Below are positions 881-56,666 of a stretch of DNA of 64,000 nt, one piece after another. The notes under the pieces were generated by a model. The model ran no database searches. It was not told where the DNA came from and saw only the letters and a list, made by a program, of their open reading frames with translations. This DNA is from Prorocentrum cordatum (Eukaryota; Sar; Dinophyceae; Prorocentrales; Prorocentraceae). Each line of letters begins with the position of its first letter. The stretch's first letter is position 1. The DNA is taken from assembly GCA_963575745.1 (NCBI GenBank), contig CAUYUJ010017916.1:152188-216187 (forward strand), given 5' to 3'. A program made the translations under genes and the position numbers.

Positions 881-2545
881 CCCTACCAGTACCCCCCCCC
901 CAACCCCCCAGGGCCGTACTAGTACGGCAAAGTAGTCCTACTAGTAGCTCTGCCGGGGCGGACTTTCGGGGGCGTCTCGAGCAGAGGCTCACTCCGCCGG
1001 TCGTACTAGCAGCCCAAAGTAGCCCTACTAGTAGCCCCGGCGGGGCGGACTTTCGAGTATGTCTCGAGCGGAGGCCCCCTCCGCCGGTCGTACTCGTAAG
1101 CCAAAGTACCCTACGAGTACGCCCCCGCCACTCTCCCAGGGACCGTACTAGTAGCCCAAAGTAGCCCTACTAGCAGCCCCTCCAGGGCGAACTTGTGAGT
1201 ATGTCTCAGGGGGGGCTCTCTCCGCAATTCGTACTAGTAGGCCAAAGTAGCCCTACTAGAACGCCTCCGCCAACCCCCAGGACCGTACTGGTAGGCCAAA
1301 GTAGCTCTACTAGTAGCCCCGCCGGCCATCCCCCCGGGTCCGTACTAGTAGGGCTACTTCGGCCCTACTAGTAGCACCGCCGGGGCGGACTTTCGAGGAT
1401 GTCTCGAGCGAGGGCCCCCTCCGCTGGTTGCACTAGTAGGCAAAAGTAGCCCTACTAGTACGCCCCGGCGGGCCGGACTTTCCAGAATGTCTCGAGCGAG
1501 GGCCCCCTCCGCCGGTCGTAGTAGTAGGCCAAAGTAGCCCTACTAGCACGCCCCCGCCAGACCCCTCTGGACCGTACTAGTAAGCCAAAGTAGCCCTACT
1601 GGTAGCCTCGCCGGGGCGGACTTTCGAGGATGTCTCGAGCGGGGGCCCCCTCCGCCGGTCGTACTAGTAGGCCAAAGTAGCCCTACTAGTACGCCCCCGC
1701 CAGCCCCCCGGGGCCCGTACTAGTAGGCGAAAGTAGCTCTACTAGTAGCCCTGCCGGGGCGGACTTTCGAGGATGTCTCGAGCGGGGGCGCCCTCCGCCG
1801 GTCGTACTATTGGCAAAAGTAACCCTACTAGTACGCCCCGGCCATCCCCCCGGGTCCGTACTAGTAGGGCTACCTCGGCCCTACTAGTAGCCCCGGCGGG
1901 GCGGACTTTCCAGAATGTCTCGAGCGGGAGCGCCCTCTGCCGGTCGTACTAATAGGCCAAAGTAGCCCTACGAGTACGCCCCCGTCAAGCTCCCGGGGGC
2001 CGTACTAGTAGGCCAAAGAAGCCCTACTAGTAGCCCCGCCGGGGCGAACTTTCGAGAATGTCCCGAGCGCGAGCCCCCTCCGCCGGTCCTACTAGTAGGC
2101 CAAAGTAGCCCTATTAGTACGCACTCGCCATCCCCTCAGGCCCGTACTATCAGGCCCAAAGAACCCGACTAGTAGCCCCCGCTTGGGCGGACTTTCGAGG
2201 ATGTATCAAGCAGGGGCGCTCTCCGCAGGTCGTGCTAGTAGGGCAAAGTAGCCCTACTACTACGCCCCAACCATCCCCCCAGATCCGTACTAGTAGGGCC
2301 ACTTCGTCCCTACTAGCAGCCCTGGCGGAGCGGACTTCCGAGAATGTCTCGAGCGGGAGCGCCTTCCGCCGGTCGTACTAGTAGGCCAAAGTAGCCCTAC
2401 TAGTACGCCCCCGCCAGCCCCCATGGGCCGTACGAGTACACCAAAGTAGCCTTACTAGTAGCTCCGCCGGGGCAGAGTTCCGAGAATGTCTCGAGCGGAG
2501 GCCCCCTCCGCCGACCGTACCAGTAGTAGGCTCAAGAAGCTCTAC
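880..2545. repeat. Tandem satellite array B, about 144 bp unit
   Basis: About eleven units of roughly 144 bp, marked by recurring ATGTCTCGAGCG (near 1397, 1482, 1627, 1770, 1910, 2055, 2200, 2345, 2485) and by GTACTAGTAGGCCAAAGTAG. It shares the TACTAGTA palindromic core with array A but has its own GGGGCGGACTTTCGAG segment. No coding signal is seen. Confidence 0.85.
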
Positions 2546-2589
2546 TAGAATGCCCCGGCCTAAACCCTCCTACCCCTTCCATCTGCCCC

Positions 2590-2616
2590 CTCCCCCCTCT
2601 CTCTCTCTCTTTTTTT

Positions 2617-2649
<33 letters not shown>

Positions 2650-2660
2650 GTATTCCTCAC

Positions 2661-2721
<61 letters not shown>

Positions 2722-2722
2722 C
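2590..2722. repeat. (CT)n microsatellite
   Basis: Nearly pure CT dinucleotide run with a short T-rich interruption. It is followed to 2760 by C-rich sequence. The Ser/Leu and Arg/Glu open frames over it are simple-repeat artefacts. Confidence 0.95.
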
Positions 2723-2759
2723 CCGATCCCCCCCTTCCCCCTCCTCCCTCCTTCCCACT

Positions 2760-3370
2760 TCCTCGTCGCCGGCGCTGCCGCCGTCGCCGTCGTCGTCGTC
2801 GTCGTCGCCGTCACGCAGCCCCAAGCCGACCCCGCGGAAGCCCCAAGAGCCACAATTAAGGCTAATCGTGATAAGAAGATTACATATACGATTCGCACAT
2901 CGCTCGGCGATGACAAAGTTCAGTCTCGCCGCCCCCTCCGCCGACCAAATGTATCTTTCCAGAAATATCCAACGCGGCGGAGTTTCGGATTCCGAACGTA
3001 CTCTCATTATCCGGTACACAAAGGTACTCAAACCAGCTACCTCACCAGAGCGACTCTCGAGAGCGCTTCCATCAAAACCCCAGAGAAACATATTCTCGCG
3101 GAGAACGATTGCAAAGTCACTCCCTGAAGCCTTCCACTCTCCACCCTGGCACAGCGTAAACACAGTACCACCACAATCTCATACAATGTAACAGGAGCAC
3201 CCTCAAACAACCAGGCACCTGACACGCGCGAACTCCACCCATGAGACCTTTTTCCCGCTCTTCACTGTGAATATCAAACCCGAAACCGCAACCCCCATGG
3301 GCCCATGCCCGCTGCATCTCACACGACCGATAGCGCACCCGACTCAGAGTCGGAGTCTACAACGGTCGGA
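2760..3370. other. Unique-looking intergenic DNA
   Basis: Less GC-rich stretch with no recognisable gene, exon or repeat family. The open frames have no protein-like character that I can identify. Confidence 0.4.
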
Positions 3371-3374
3371 ACCA

Positions 3375-3740
3375 CATCGCGGTCGGCACCCACCTCGTCT
3401 GGCACGATTAACGGCGCGCCCACCTCGCATGCCGATTCTACTCCTGTATAGACAGTATCTGGATCCATGCCCTCCGCGCCGGACTGGAAGGGCGCCGCGC
3501 CCGCGCGCGCGCCATGACACCCGGTGCCGAACCCTCCCGCGCCCGCGAAAGGCAACGAGAACCTCAGCGGTGACTCTGTGAACCAGCTCTCGTTGGCGGC
3601 ACGCTGCCCATCGCGGTCGGCACCCACCTCGTCTGGCACGATTAACGGCGCGCCCACCTCGCATGCCGATTCCACTCCTGTATAGACAGTATTTGGATCC
3701 TTGCCCTCCGCGCCGGACTGGAAGAGCGCCGCGCCCACCA
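3375..3740. repeat. Direct duplication, 234-bp offset
   Basis: A segment of about 125 bp starting CATCGCGGTCGGCACCCACC at 3375 is repeated from 3609 with few differences. The copies are separated by unrelated sequence. Confidence 0.85.
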
Positions 3741-3789
3741 GATGGCGCCACGCCCACGCAACATGAGGTGTCGCCGACTCAGCCGCTGA

Positions 3790-4240
3790 CTGCTGGGCAG
3801 CGGGTTACCCATGACCCCGATTCGGCCGAGGATGGGTTACCACCCCCAGCCCGGACGCAAAGGATTACCCTGCGCCCGATTCGGCCGCCGATGGGTTACC
3901 ACCGGCGGCCCGGAGGCAAGGGGTTACCCCTGCCTCCGATTCGGCCGAGGATGGGTCACCACCCCTGGCCCGGACGCAAGGGTTCCCCCCTGCGCCCGAT
4001 TCGGCTGACGATGGGTTACCACCGGCGGCCTAGAGACAAGGGGTTACCCCTGCCCCCGATTCGGCCGAGGATGGGTTACCACCCCCAGCCCGGACGCAAA
4101 GGATGACCCCTGCGCCCGATTCGGCCGCCGATGGGTTACCACCGGCGGCCCGGAGGCAAGGGGTTACCCCTGCCTCCGATTCGGCCGAGGATGGGTTACC
4201 ACCTCCGGCCCGGACACAAGAGGTTACCCCTGCGCCCGGC
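3790..4240. repeat. 60-bp tandem repeat, about 7 units
   Basis: Units of exactly 60 bp containing GATTCGGCCGAGGATGGGTT and GGAGGCAAGGGGTTACCCC alternate between two subtypes. Because 60 is a multiple of three, all reading frames repeat with a 20-residue period, which explains several open frames. No start context or SL supports expression. Confidence 0.9.
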
Positions 4241-4245
4241 CGCTG

Positions 4246-4246
<1 letters not shown>

Positions 4247-4295
<49 letters not shown>
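4247..4295. repeat. (CGT)n trinucleotide repeat
   Basis: Pure TCG/CGT run immediately after the 60-bp array. Confidence 0.95.
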
Positions 4296-4619
4296 GCTCC
4301 TCAGTCACGGTGTCGGGCACGCAGGCCCGTGGCGGTAACAAATGTGCTGAAGACCAGCTCAGACGCGGCTAGGTCCAAGTCGTTCACAGACAGGACTCCC
4401 AGGCCGCATAGGGAGGGGAAGGGTTATGCAGAGGGACTCCCGCGTCAGACTCCCTCGCAAGTCTCTCGAGTTACGCACGCACGAAGCTCCAGGCTCAATC
4501 CTTCCCCATGTCCACGATTGAAGAGGCCAGAAGGGGACCGGGGACCGAGGACCGGACCGGGGGCCGGTCAAAGAAATTCCGCCATTGTGAAGCGGGTGCG
4601 GAGGCCTCGCCGAAAATCC

Positions 4620-5430
4620 TCCACATGGCCGACGTACGCGTGCTCGTACGAGTGGAGCGGGCGTACGGGTTCGGCTACGTAGGCGCACTAATACGACAGC
4701 AAAGTGCACGGACGGGCGTACGAGTACGGCTACGTGAGCCTCCGAATACGGCGGCGGTGCGCGGCTCGGGCGTACGAGTACGGCTACGTACGGCGACTAG
4801 TACGACTGTGACGTGCACGCCCGAGCGTACGAGTACGGCTACGTACTGGTACGAGTACGACTGGAGCGGGCGTACGACTTCGGCGACGTAGGCCTACTAG
4901 TACGGCAGCAGAGTGCAAGAACGGCCGTACTAGTACAGCTACGTACGCCTACTAATACGACGGCGGTGTGCCGGGTCGGGCGTACGAGTACGGCTACGTA
5001 ACGCTACGAGTACGACTGCGACGTGCCCGGCCGAGCGTACGAGTAGGGCCACGTACGCGTACTAAAACGACCGGAGCGGGCGTACTAGTACGGCTACGTA
5101 GGCCTACTAGTACGACGGCGGAGCGCAGGGACGGTCGTACTAGTGCGGCTACGTAGGCCTACTAAAACGACGGCTGTGTGCGGGGCGGGGCGTACGAGTA
5201 CGGCTACGCACGGCTACTAGTACGACTGCGGCGTGCACGGCCGAGCGTACGAGTACGGCTACGTACGGCTACTAGTACGACTGCGGCGTGCACGGCCGAG
5301 CGTACGAGTACGGCTACGTACGGCTACTAGTACGACTGCGGCGTGCAAGGCCGAGCGTACGAGTACAGCTACGTACGGCTACTAGTACGCCCCGCGGTCG
5401 TACTAGTAGGAGGAAGGAGGCCTACTAGTA
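4620..5430. repeat. Tandem satellite array C, 55 bp unit
   Basis: In the most regular part (5221-5385) the unit is 55 bp: TACGACTGCGGCGTGCACGG followed by CCGAGCGTACGAGTACGGCT and ACGTACGGCTACTAG. Upstream units are more diverged. It shares CTACTAGTACG with array A, so arrays A, B and C form one superfamily. Confidence 0.85.
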
Positions 5431-6539
5431 CGACGACCGGGCTAAGCAAGCCTATTCTGCAGGGACAAGGACGTCTGGCTAGATTGGAGCCCTGGCTATG
5501 TGGACTCATTCACGAATCGTGGTATTGCGGCCGCCTGGGGGCGCGCGCCGTCCTGCGCACGGGGGGCGGCGGGCTTGATCAGAGCCTCTTAGCCTTTTGA
5601 ATTCTAGTCTCGTAGTGGCCCTGGCAAACAATTCTCACTTCCCTCCCGGGCTCGCCGCCCAGGTGTTCCACCCCTTGCCCTCCTCCCCGGCCTTCTCTGC
5701 GGACAAGCCCTCTGGGCGTGGCACAGTGAGCATGTCAATCGGGGCGGCTGCGTGCCGAGTGCATCGATAACCACGTGCTGGCGCCAGAAGCGCCGCAGCA
5801 ACTTCGGCCTCCCCTTCGGAGCGCTCTCTGGAACGACGCGACGAAGTGGCAGTCAGCAGTCTGTTGTGGCAATTGGTTCCAGACTGGGGAGGCGACAGTT
5901 TGCGCTGAAACCACGCGCTGTTCGAGATGCCCAGAGACCGGGGGGGGCCAAGGAGGAGAGAGCAGGAGGAGCACTGCCAGATGAAGCCTCAGAGAGAAGG
6001 CCGCGGACAGAAAAGTCCTGCCTCATACTCAGAGAAGCCAACTTATCATACTCGCAGGGGGCCGCCTTTGTGGGAACGTCGCGCTCTCCATCGCAAAACC
6101 ATCGAAACCCAAGGAACCCAGGCCACCCTGGAGGCAAGCAGGGTGTTTCTTCGCATGATTTTCCATTGTACTCGACGCCTCGTGTCTCACGTCGCCGCTG
6201 ACAAATACTTCAGTTCGTCCTCCCGACTAATCCTGCCCTCAACTGGGGGCGCCACTCCTGAGCTCTCGCGTTCGATGTAGGCTAGATGACCACAAGCGCT
6301 GTAGAAGACAGAATCCCGAATACCGCAGGCCACACTGGGAACTCGCAATCAATCAAAATTAATACCCGTCACCGTGCCGTAGGCTCTAGGTGGAGAACGC
6401 AAGAATGCCCCCCGAGAGTCCAAACTCATACCGACAAAAACATGCAGTGATTCACTGATGTGTTGCTTGTCGCCCTTTCCCTTCTCATGGGCCTCCGAGG
6501 TTCCAAGACACCCCCGAGGTCGCCCAAAAGACCCGATAA
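5430..6539. other. Intergenic DNA with one dispersed-repeat fragment
   Basis: No gene recognised. At about 6060-6165 the sequence matches 27410-27520 and 60480-60590 (GGAGGCAAGCAGGGTGTTTC and flanks), so it carries a fragment of that dispersed family. Confidence 0.4.
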
Positions 6540-41832: not shown

Positions 41833-42049
41833 GCGGGCGCCGCGCGCCCGTTCTCGCCTGGGGGTCGGCCTCTCGCCGCAGACGCGCGAGCAGGGGCTCG
41901 ACGACAGCCAGTCCGTCGAAAAAGGACGCACGAGAAGAGTCCCCACCTCATCCCCCTCGTCCTCCTCCTCCTGCTCCTCATCATCATCATCGTCGCGCGT
42001 CCCGAGGCGCCAGGGGCATTCCACAAGTTCACAAAGAAGAACATCGCTG

Positions 42050-42601
42050 TAGCAAGTCTACCTCTGAAACAGAGGGTCAAACACACAGCACTTTATGGTT
42101 GGCCTTCCCCAAAGCAAGGAGGGCAACATGCACGGGAAGGTATGGAGACAAGGTCAACATACGCAGCGCAAGAAATGAAGACAATGAGAGCGTGAGACCT
42201 GCATGTCAAGAAGCGCAGCACACTACAGGAGGACAGTCACAGCAGCAAGCAATGTATGACTCATCAACACAACCTGCAAGGGAACGAAGTAAAGAAGACA
42301 CGACAATTCGCATGACAGGAATAAGAACAACATAGGCGAAAAAAAAGCAGCATGTGAGCAAACCGGTCAAGACTTCCTTCGCAGAGACAAAACGTTGCAA
42401 GGTGAACAAAATAAGCACCGAAGAATAATACATGTGTGGCGGGATATTCACCAGTCAACTGTTACATGAGAAACGGCAATTTGTGAACAATCCTACCAAG
42501 CCGAAAAGTGTGGCATAATTCACAACGATACAATAGCAACGTGCACGCGATTCAAATTGTCAACAAGCCAAACAGGCCCATACAGCTCCTCGTTGCAGAT
42601 G
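42050..42601 (-). other. Putative 3' UTR of the retrogene
   Basis: On the minus strand the 550 nt after the stop are clearly T-rich and less GC-rich than the window (TTTGGCTTGTTGACAATTTG, GTTCTTATTCCTGTC). This suits a transcript 3' end. No poly(T) on the plus strand marks an old poly(A) tail. Confidence 0.45.
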
Positions 42602-43594
42602 CTACTGCTGCTGACAAGTCGCGTCGGTGGGCGGTCCAATGCCCTGCAGCCCATCACCATTGGCACGAGAGGTAGCAGAGGGGGCAGCAGCTGGGATGTG
42701 CCGAAGTGTCGGCGCATCGCGAACAAACTGTCGATATTCGGCGCTGTCTAACACCTGCATCTCCATGAGCTTTCTCTTGAACGGCTGGGGCCGCTTACCA
42801 GAGTACGTAAAGGGAGCAATTGTGTCCGCGTGCATTGCGTGGAGGAGCTTTCTCTTGAAAGGCTGGGGCCACACACCAGTGAAAGCGAAGGGTGCAATGG
42901 TGGCCGCGTGCACTGCGCAGAGCTCCACTACAGTGCTGTCCACCATCGGGCTGTGAGCCTCCCAAATGCATGGCGCATATCCGCTGGCCCCCAGTAATCC
43001 ACCCTCAGCATACTCCGAACCGGGGGGGGGGACCCCGATCTCGGGTCTCTCGAGCAGCGCCTCCAGCAAGCCTGCGGCTGGGCAGTCCTCACCCTCAGGG
43101 GCCCTATCGCCCAGCTCCTCCATCGGCGCGTCGAGCAAAGGCCAGACACCAGGTGGCCGCTGCGGCCAAAAAGGAAGAGCGTCGCGTCGGAGCTCTCCTC
43201 GCACAGGCGCATGGTCCACCGCCTTCGAACGCCTCTGGATGGAGTTGAACTCTGTCTGGGATGAGCCAGCCAGGATGTCGGCGCTGATGTCGAAGACGTG
43301 CGAGGCCGTGTTCTGCAGCTTGGAGGGTGTGCGGCCCTTAAGCGCAGCAGCAATGACGGGGGCCACGAGCTGGAGGCGCTTGGATAGCTGGGAGTCGTCT
43401 CCAAGCACCGCCCTGAGTTCCTCCAGCTGGTCCATCAGCACCGCCTTCTCGCTCGTGAGCTTCCTCACAAAATTGTCTGCTGCTGTCACCACCCGCGCGC
43501 GCCGCGCGCGCCTGCTTGCCGCGCCGCTCTCCATGTCTCGCCACGCACCAGGGGCGAGTCCCGCTGCCATCTTACACCCAGCATCCGGCGCCAT
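42602..43594 (-). CDS. Intronless 330-codon retrogene, function unknown
   Basis: One uninterrupted frame from ATG (43594) to TAG (42604-42602). The start is favoured because the spliced-leader relics end 38 nt upstream; one upstream ATG (ATG TGC TAG) gives a two-codon uORF. The predicted protein has a basic patch (SRRARRARVV, about residues 27-36), a helical region (TSEKAVLMDQLEELRAVLGD, about 48-67), an acidic centre, and a C-terminal tandem duplication of about 27 residues: HAATIAPFAFTGVWPQPFKR then HADTIAPFTYSGKRPQPFKR. No domain is recognised. Absence of introns plus SL sequence in genomic DNA indicates origin by reverse transcription of a mature mRNA, as known for many dinoflagellate genes. 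The intact frame argues that it is, or recently was, functional. The product's role cannot be told. Confidence 0.8.
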   Translation of the reverse strand: MAPDAGCKMAAGLAPGAWRDMESGAASRRARRARVVTAADNFVRKLTSEKAVLMDQLEELRAVLGDDSQLSKRLQLVAPVIAAALKGRTPSKLQNTASHVFDISADILAGSSQTEFNSIQRRSKAVDHAPVRGELRRDALPFWPQRPPGVWPLLDAPMEELGDRAPEGEDCPAAGLLEALLERPEIGVPPPGSEYAEGGLLGASGYAPCIWEAHSPMVDSTVVELCAVHAATIAPFAFTGVWPQPFKRKLLHAMHADTIAPFTYSGKRPQPFKRKLMEMQVLDSAEYRQFVRDAPTLRHIPAAAPSATSRANGDGLQGIGPPTDATCQQQ

Positions 43595-43632
43595 GAGCTA
43601 GCACATAGAGCCAAGATGTTGGGGGTGCCTGG

Positions 43633-43669
43633 CTTGAGCCAAAATGGCTTGAGCCAAAATGGCTACGGT
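43633..43669 (-). other. Tandem spliced-leader relics: one full, one truncated
   Basis: On the minus strand 43669-43648 is a complete 22-nt dinoflagellate SL (A, then CCGTAG, then CCATTTTGGCTCAAG). It is followed without spacer at 43647-43633 by a second copy of CCATTTTGGCTCAAG that lacks the first seven bases. The truncation falls exactly after the internal AG of CCGTAG, which can act as a trans-splice acceptor. The simplest history is an mRNA with an SL integrated, transcribed again, trans-spliced at the AG inside the old SL, and integrated a second time. Confidence 0.95.
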
Positions 43670-43670
43670 C

Positions 43671-43795
43671 CCTCCTCCTCCTCGTCCTCCTCGTCCTCCT
43701 CGTCCTCCTCGTCCTCCTCGTCCTCCTCCTCCTCCTCCTCCTCCTCCTCCTCCTCCCTGCCTCCTCCTCCTCCTTCTCCTCCTCCTCCTCCTCTC
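43671..43795. repeat. (TCC)n/(TCG)n tract abutting the SL relic
   Basis: CCTCGTCCTCCTCGTCC then pure CCT triplets. It begins two bases from the outer end of the complete SL, so the purine strand is directly upstream of the retrogene. Confidence 0.95.
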
Positions 43796-56645: not shown

Positions 56646-56666
56646 CTTGAGCCGAGCCTGCTACGG
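56646..56666 (-). other. Degenerate spliced-leader-like relic
   Basis: On the minus strand CCGTAGC, six bases of which one matches, then GGCTCAAG, in exactly the SL spacing: 16 of 21 positions match and both ends are perfect. It is in the sense orientation, 51 nt before the ATG of the intronless gene. By itself it could be chance; its position makes it suggestive. Confidence 0.5.

Follow-up and report, generated by a model that had tools for sequence, protein, structure and literature searches.

The locus studied here raises the question of how a gene of the dinoflagellate Prorocentrum cordatum came to carry two spliced leaders (SLs) in genomic DNA, a full one joined directly to a truncated one. 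Recycling of dinoflagellate mRNAs into retrogenes marked by a DinoSL and a relict of an older one (DinoRL) was reportedly described by Slamovits & Keeling in 2008. The window, that is the whole stretch of 64,000 nucleotides that was analysed, has a GC content of 63% and holds the gene with the following features.

43670..43793, minus strand: (AGG)n / GAGGAGGAC microsatellite directly 5' of the SL, the presumed insertion target
43648..43669, minus strand: DinoSL by pattern match, 21 nt certain, A43669 possibly part of the repeat
43633..43647, minus strand: relict SL (DinoRL) CCATTTTGGCTCAAG, an exact match, its end cut after the AG of CCGTAG
43595..43632, minus strand: 38-nt 5' leader starting CCAGG, with an AGCCA repeat shared with the SL, 95-100% identical in L087-L089
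43605..43619, minus strand: candidate third, decayed relict ACATCTTGGCTCTAT, 4/15 mismatched, assessed by shuffles of the leader
42602..43594, minus strand: 330-codon frame, with no Pfam family above cut-off and no homologue found
41991..42601, minus strand: low-GC 3' UTR of the retroposed unit, common to the sister copies
41979..41990, minus strand: (ATG)4 run in place of poly(A), from the reading of the 3' end
41943..41978, minus strand: AGG-rich tract beyond the 3' end, with an 18-nt stretch AGGAGGAGGAGGACGAGG in common with the 5' tract

On the minus strand, CCGTAGCCATTTTGGCTCAAG abuts CCATTTTGGCTCAAG, and the 38-nt leader and an intact 330-codon frame follow. The first-pass annotation had described a truncated SL at 43647-43633, a 38-nt 5' UTR and an intact, intronless 330-codon frame, and all of this was verified. 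The SL pattern DCCGTAGCCATTTTGGCTCAAG, with up to 3 mismatches allowed, gave one exact match at 43648-43669(-) together with the overlapping relict, against a mean of 0.00 in 100 shuffles, while CCATTTTGGCTCAAG was found exactly at 43633-43647 and again at 43648-43662. The relict begins CCATTTT, the first 7 nt of the SL being gone by a cut at AG, and CCAGGCACC comes after it. The SL had been called complete at 22 nt (43669-43648); it is exact there, but only 21 nt (43668-43648) are certain because the base preceding CCGTAG is T in 62/68 and A in 2/68 sampled genomic copies, and the 22nd base, A43669, may be part of the GGGA of the microsatellite. DinoSL and relict thus lie immediately 5' of the gene, as in a DinoSL-tagged retrogene, and the frame is without introns. 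The frame also looks coding: its period-3 chi-square was 52 as compared with 21.5 at most in 1000 shuffles, and a sense frame of at least 330 codons arose in 2/5000 shuffles of 43632-42000. Within the leader, the score of the putative third relict ACATCTTGGCTCTAT was reached in 0.3% of shuffles that kept mononucleotide composition and in 0.9% of those that kept dinucleotides; the unit is recognisable, in altered form, in 10/12 sister loci read, but not in L085 or L097. Judged from the sister copies, the retroposed unit would extend to about 41979, past the stop codon at 42602. The sole candidate for a target-site duplication of the window copy is the 18-nt match AGGAGGAGGAGGACGAGG within simple repeat, which is weak evidence because a 15-mer of it is found 5 times in the window.

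The 330-aa protein matched no Pfam family above the cut-off and nothing in phage records. No homologue was found among the 7,999 best candidates scored in the protein collection with the whole query, nor among 41 candidates scored with residues 216-300. Ten other large frames of the window gave a single Pfam match, below the cut-off, and Rfam gave 0 matches at the gathering score. Elsewhere in the window, an SL-like sequence, CCGTAGCAGGCTCGGCTCAAG, lies at 56646-56666 (-) with 5/21 positions mismatched; the mean was 0.1 in 30 mononucleotide-shuffled windows.

The assembly searched comprises 4,128,499,153 bases in 21,875 contigs, for a genome given as ~4.15 Gbp (excerpted text of PMC10449503) with a GC content of 59.7% (excerpted text of PMC10666404). 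Exact 21-nt SLs were found 7,201 + 7,017 = 14,218 times (reversed control 0). The 36-mer of SL and relict, with as many as 3 mismatches allowed, occurred 1,929 + 1,961 = 3,890 times (control 0; all exact among the matches listed), so the double SL is ordinary in this assembly. The relict SLs, the cut at AG and the several rounds are already published. In the portions of these sources that bear on it, a truncated SL was counted in 61 ESTs, or 26% of SL ESTs, with a second relict in 11 ESTs (PMC3229502), 5% of 6,544 retrogenes had at least two relicts (PMC12014239), and up to four relicts per case were recorded (PMC7245778). As in the DinoSL-DinoRL retrogenes so described, where several relicts stand for several rounds (PMC3229502, PMC6050394, PMC12014239, PMC7245778), the SL of the window is followed directly by a relict truncated just past the AG of CCGTAG; the published cases, as far as these texts go, are mainly transcripts, whereas here the genomic copy, its sisters, the target and the ATG-type 3' end are visible.

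A sample of SLs was read, made up of the first 68 of 100 listed exact SLs, from early contigs and thus non-random. An exact relict lay directly behind 7/68, so that the rarity which the first-pass annotation had implied for a double SL does not hold, and a further 9/68 were followed by CCA without an exact relict. An ungapped relict with 1-5 mismatches was found behind 5/68, against 0/68 at a control offset of 100 nt; by eye, a few further SLs had a gapped relict or a decayed full SL. One locus, L044, has an exact SL, an exact relict and a third unit with 4/15 mismatches, a triple in which the decay is graded as it would be after successive rounds. A sense frame of at least 250 codons stood within ~1-1.5 kb behind 60/68 SLs; within 980 nt, such frames were found in 60/68 in sense, 17/68 in antisense and 1/68 in shuffled sequence. 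SL+relict tandems numbered 0 in viral contigs.

Several SL loci deserve separate mention. In the groups L030/L032/L036, L006/L041/L046, L014/L064, L034/L043 and L037/L039, the sequences that follow the SL are alike for ~45-110 nt and then diverge abruptly, which may represent shared leader modules. Three near-identical SL-headed loci on one contig (L059-L061), with near-identical upstream sequence, form a local tandem gene array. An IMG/VR contig of 7157 bp (L001, 1936-2913) has two exact SLs and a GC content of ~9-24% outside one stretch; one SL heads this 48% GC stretch, which holds a 254-aa frame, and ~90-nt AT-rich stretches near both SLs are 81% alike. The stretch may be an SL-retrocopy that a large DNA virus took from its host, although the viral label is that of IMG/VR; a protein search with the 254-aa frame matched only itself. 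Two contigs were labelled Dehalococcoidia: in L002 (1-60) the SL stands directly behind (TCA)n and is followed by CCAG, and the contig was probably misbinned and comes from a dinoflagellate in which SLs have the same microsatellite setting; in L003 (4334-4354) the SL is followed by GTACGC, a possible misbinned SL RNA gene.

The window gene belongs to a dispersed family. A DNA search of the assembly, in which 40 of 258 candidates were scored and 45 matches were listed, allowed 5' ends to be read at 13 dispersed loci, L085 and L087-L098, where L098 is the window and the three copies of L097 are counted once. An intron-bearing parent, which the first-pass annotation had envisaged, was not proven in this search. 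Three other full-length copies among the best 40 of 258 candidates are intronless; L090 and L091 are interrupted or longer, yet each has an SL of its own with an AGG tract ahead of it. Both have an extra in-frame 117 nt, and L090 carries a 4.2-kb insert at about 1926-6160 (reverse strand) with 11-bp inverted ends CCTAACATCGA/TCGATGTTAGG, which may be a DNA transposon or an introner-like element. That the SL bases are cDNA contamination is disfavoured, we argue, because related copies are dispersed at many places across the assembly.

An SL+relict was present in 2/13 loci, the window and L092, the latter of a subfamily B whose leader starts CTGCAAC. A single exact SL was read in L087, L088, L089 and L094 and a single SL with one mismatch in L085, L090, L095 and L096, while the SL is more altered in L091, L093 and L097. 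L087, L088 and L089 have the same leader as the window copy at 90-93% DNA identity, and in subfamily B the tandem of L092 stands beside the single exact SL of L094 and the altered SL of L093. A tandem is therefore found beside single-SL sisters in two subfamilies, which fits the prediction of a second round. The copies have AGG repeat at both ends. Alignments of the window with its sisters start within the microsatellite and stop within the 3' repeat, or short of it in the case of L091 and L097. The outer flanks of the sisters therefore differ from those of the window, in a comparison of the window with each sister other than L085 and, for L096, without the 5' outer flank. One copy, L085, lies outside microsatellites and has no AGG tract upstream; it is flanked by a 16-bp target-site duplication, GGGGAGCACCCACACC on both sides of the SL-headed copy, with 5-6 extra nt ahead of the SL and an ATG run at its end. 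With single-SL sisters, different outer flanks and a duplication in one sister, the earlier reading of the SL-relict copy as a retroposed trans-spliced mRNA was borne out.

The 3' ends tell a similar story. In ten loci (L087-L090, L092-L096 and the window) the unit ends in ...CGGGACGTGCG, then ATG-type triplets, then AGG, with small variations such as GATGCTGATGGGGAGG in L088 and GACGATGAGGAGG in L089; the tail pattern of the family is CCTCGGGACGTGCG(ATG)n. An ATG-type run without poly(A), that is a simple-repeat tail, was found in all eleven loci read at the 3' end, the window among them, that of L091 being masked by N. Part of the family 3' end also matches elsewhere in the assembly without the rest of the unit. 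As for the frame, which the first-pass annotation took to have survived, it is intact from the same ATG in the window (330 aa) and in L088 (334 aa), but early stops were found in L087 (29 aa), L089 (245), L090 (146) and L091 (35). Values of dN/dS for the window against L087, L088 and L089 were 0.45, 0.58 and 0.47 (0.66-1.03 in the other 12 pairs), and identity in the same three comparisons was 0.956, 0.943 and 0.936 for coding sequence and 0.913, 0.881 and 0.866 for the 3' UTR, which suggests some past constraint. The window copy is without the 12 nt GTGGCAAAGCGG present in L087-L089.

Taken in full, the best explanation, and one that we consider probable, is that the window copy is a real twice-leadered retroposed gene that went through two rounds with LINE-type machinery. 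In the first round, an mRNA would have been trans-spliced, reverse transcribed and inserted, giving the single-SL copies; in the second, one of these copies would have been transcribed and its RNA given a new SL at the relict's own AG, so that 15 nt of the old SL stayed behind, and re-insertion would have ended, at the window locus, inside the (AGG)n microsatellite. The enzyme would probably have come from a LINE-type (non-LTR) element acting by target-primed reverse transcription. LINE-type machinery is proposed because of the full-length 5' end, the ATG-type 3' run instead of poly(A) and the target-site duplication, and retroposition of this type into microsatellites is the mechanism that we favour. 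Both the order of the two rounds and the supply of the family's enzyme by a LINE are what we infer. The at least two rounds claimed earlier appear to be the likeliest origin, not the sole one, because a tandem-SL donor RNA or slippage at AGCCA gives the same bases and could mimic an order that rests on one locus.

The first of these, in which one trans-splicing event with a tandem-SL donor supplied the mRNA with SL and relict together before a single retroposition, is unlikely on balance. Fugacium kawagutii is described as having tandem-SL genes with 2 and with 3 units, and the available text offers the same alternative (PMC6616646); both units are exact at the window, and among sampled SLs exact relicts (7/68) outnumber ungapped decayed ones (5/68). 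Against this, the exact SLs with decayed relicts (5/68, control 0/68) and the graded triple of L044 resemble units of different age, a comparison skewed by a sample restricted to exact SLs. A tandem-SL donor gene was also not seen among the 68 sampled copies, a sample not aimed at SL genes.

Two rounds of LINE-type retroposition also have to be weighed against a spread at the DNA level, in which recombination between AGG tracts copied microsatellite-bounded segments, SL included. The AGG tract is directly upstream of the SL, in sense and in the same orientation, in 12/13 family loci including the window, although the tract of L089 is short and impure and those of L091 and L093 are interrupted, and at L097 three copies stand in a local tandem array; both points could be expected of such a spread. 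However, the outer flanks are unlike those of the window where compared, L085 has a target-site duplication and no upstream AGG tract, and a pair of SL-headed LINEs, L099/L100, has the same kind of junctions, and we regard this account as quite improbable.

The microsatellite context extends well beyond the family. A microsatellite lay immediately upstream of 45/68 sampled SLs, as compared with 33/267 control stretches ~300-480 nt upstream, 0/68 stretches downstream of the SL and 181/3,198 stretches of the window (Fisher p 3e-18 for the upstream enrichment). In a separate test the upstream repeat was (CCT)n in 26/68 and (AGG)n in 13/68, and AGG was found upstream of 11/12 dispersed family copies (L097 left out) versus these 13/68 (p 2e-6). 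No CCT or AGG repeat occurred up to 950 nt downstream in the 39 loci having either upstream, a stretch shorter than the elements; a 3' end came into reach only when the pair L099/L100 was extended. An association of SL-headed copies with microsatellites was not described in the open-access texts searched.

Four SL loci were extended: L008 (as L099) and L022 (as L101), picked for having a sister copy, L018 (as L103), an AGG case, and L010 (as L104), a CCT case. All four gave a LINE-type domain, above the cut-off in 3/4. L099 and L100 align over 5.7-5.8 kb at 91% identity, with (CCT)n at both ends and different flanks, and a 1,869-aa open frame of L099 matched RVT_1 (1.2e-15) and Exo_endo_phos (1.4e-8), both above cut-off. 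L101 and L102 are 98% identical in an alignment that stops short of the 3' end; in L101, RNase_H was above the cut-off and RVT_1 and Exo_endo_phos below. L104 matched RVT_1 (6.9e-15) in a frame that starts ~2.6 kb behind the SL and possibly belongs to a separate element, and L103, the AGG-associated candidate, matched Exo_endo_phos at E 5.5e-4, under the curated cut-off. For ten other SLs, a Pfam search of the first 313-500 aa that follow was negative for LINE domains. Ahead of the upstream tract of L011 stands TCAAGGTACGTTCACT(CCT)n, similar to the L099 3' end TTCAAGGTTACGTTCGCT(CCT)n. No LINE sharing the family 3' tail was found, the sole LINE 3' end reached being (CCT)n.

Replication slippage after a single round, in which a 5-bp AGCCA repeat (AGCCATTTTGGCTCA|AGCCA) duplicated the 15-nt unit in place, is very unlikely. 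The repeat is present in the window copy and in the single-SL sisters L087-L090, but the 15-nt unit recurs without it, because the tandem of L092 continues CTG and CCA follows 0/7 exact sampled tandems. A decayed SL RNA gene ('SL-like gene') preceding the frame by chance is barely conceivable: tandem units without a donor site are known in F. kawagutii from the text available (PMC6616646), but CCAGG rather than GT/GC follows the SL+relict and leader and frame are conserved in sisters. An SL RNA gene proper was rejected on the CC in place of a GT/GC donor right after the SL.

More interesting than the double SL itself is an SL-headed, microsatellite-seated gene family with SL-headed LINEs in the same genome. 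Non-LTR retrotransposons that target microsatellites were reportedly described by Kojima & Fujiwara in 2004. The SL-headed copies resemble these in their insertion into simple repeats; in contrast, the elements here are SL-headed, the repeats are dinoflagellate trinucleotides, and the passenger is a gene family without its own RT. SINEs are mobilised by a partner LINE through a common 3' end (PMC3747384, in part), and the window family is likewise non-autonomous with a recurrent 3' end; unlike SINEs, as that source presents them, it has a protein frame and an SL, and a partner LINE with its tail was not found.

Stacked SL relicts are a clock of dinoflagellate gene recycling, to be read with the caution that SL counts may contain LINE 5' ends. 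The relevant passages of a 2018 review treat the retroelement class behind recycling as unknown and favour Ty1/copia (PMC6050394), while a 2023 study of endogenous RNA viruses in Symbiodiniaceae, in the part consulted, argued for LINE-mediated insertion of viral RNA genes (PMC10235124). With retrogenes and SL-headed LINEs that have the same junctions and the same kind of target, the question of the retroelement becomes testable from one assembly. We tentatively propose, as an idea that is somewhat more probably wrong than right, that the engine of recycling consists of trans-spliced LINEs inserting into trinucleotide microsatellites; copied SL-mRNAs would land behind the repeat, the AG of the SL and the pyrimidine tract of (CCT)n would pre-equip the copy for the next trans-splicing, and relicts would stack. 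If this is true, LINE 5' ends would account for many of the 'SL relicts' that are scored as retrogenes in genomes of this kind.
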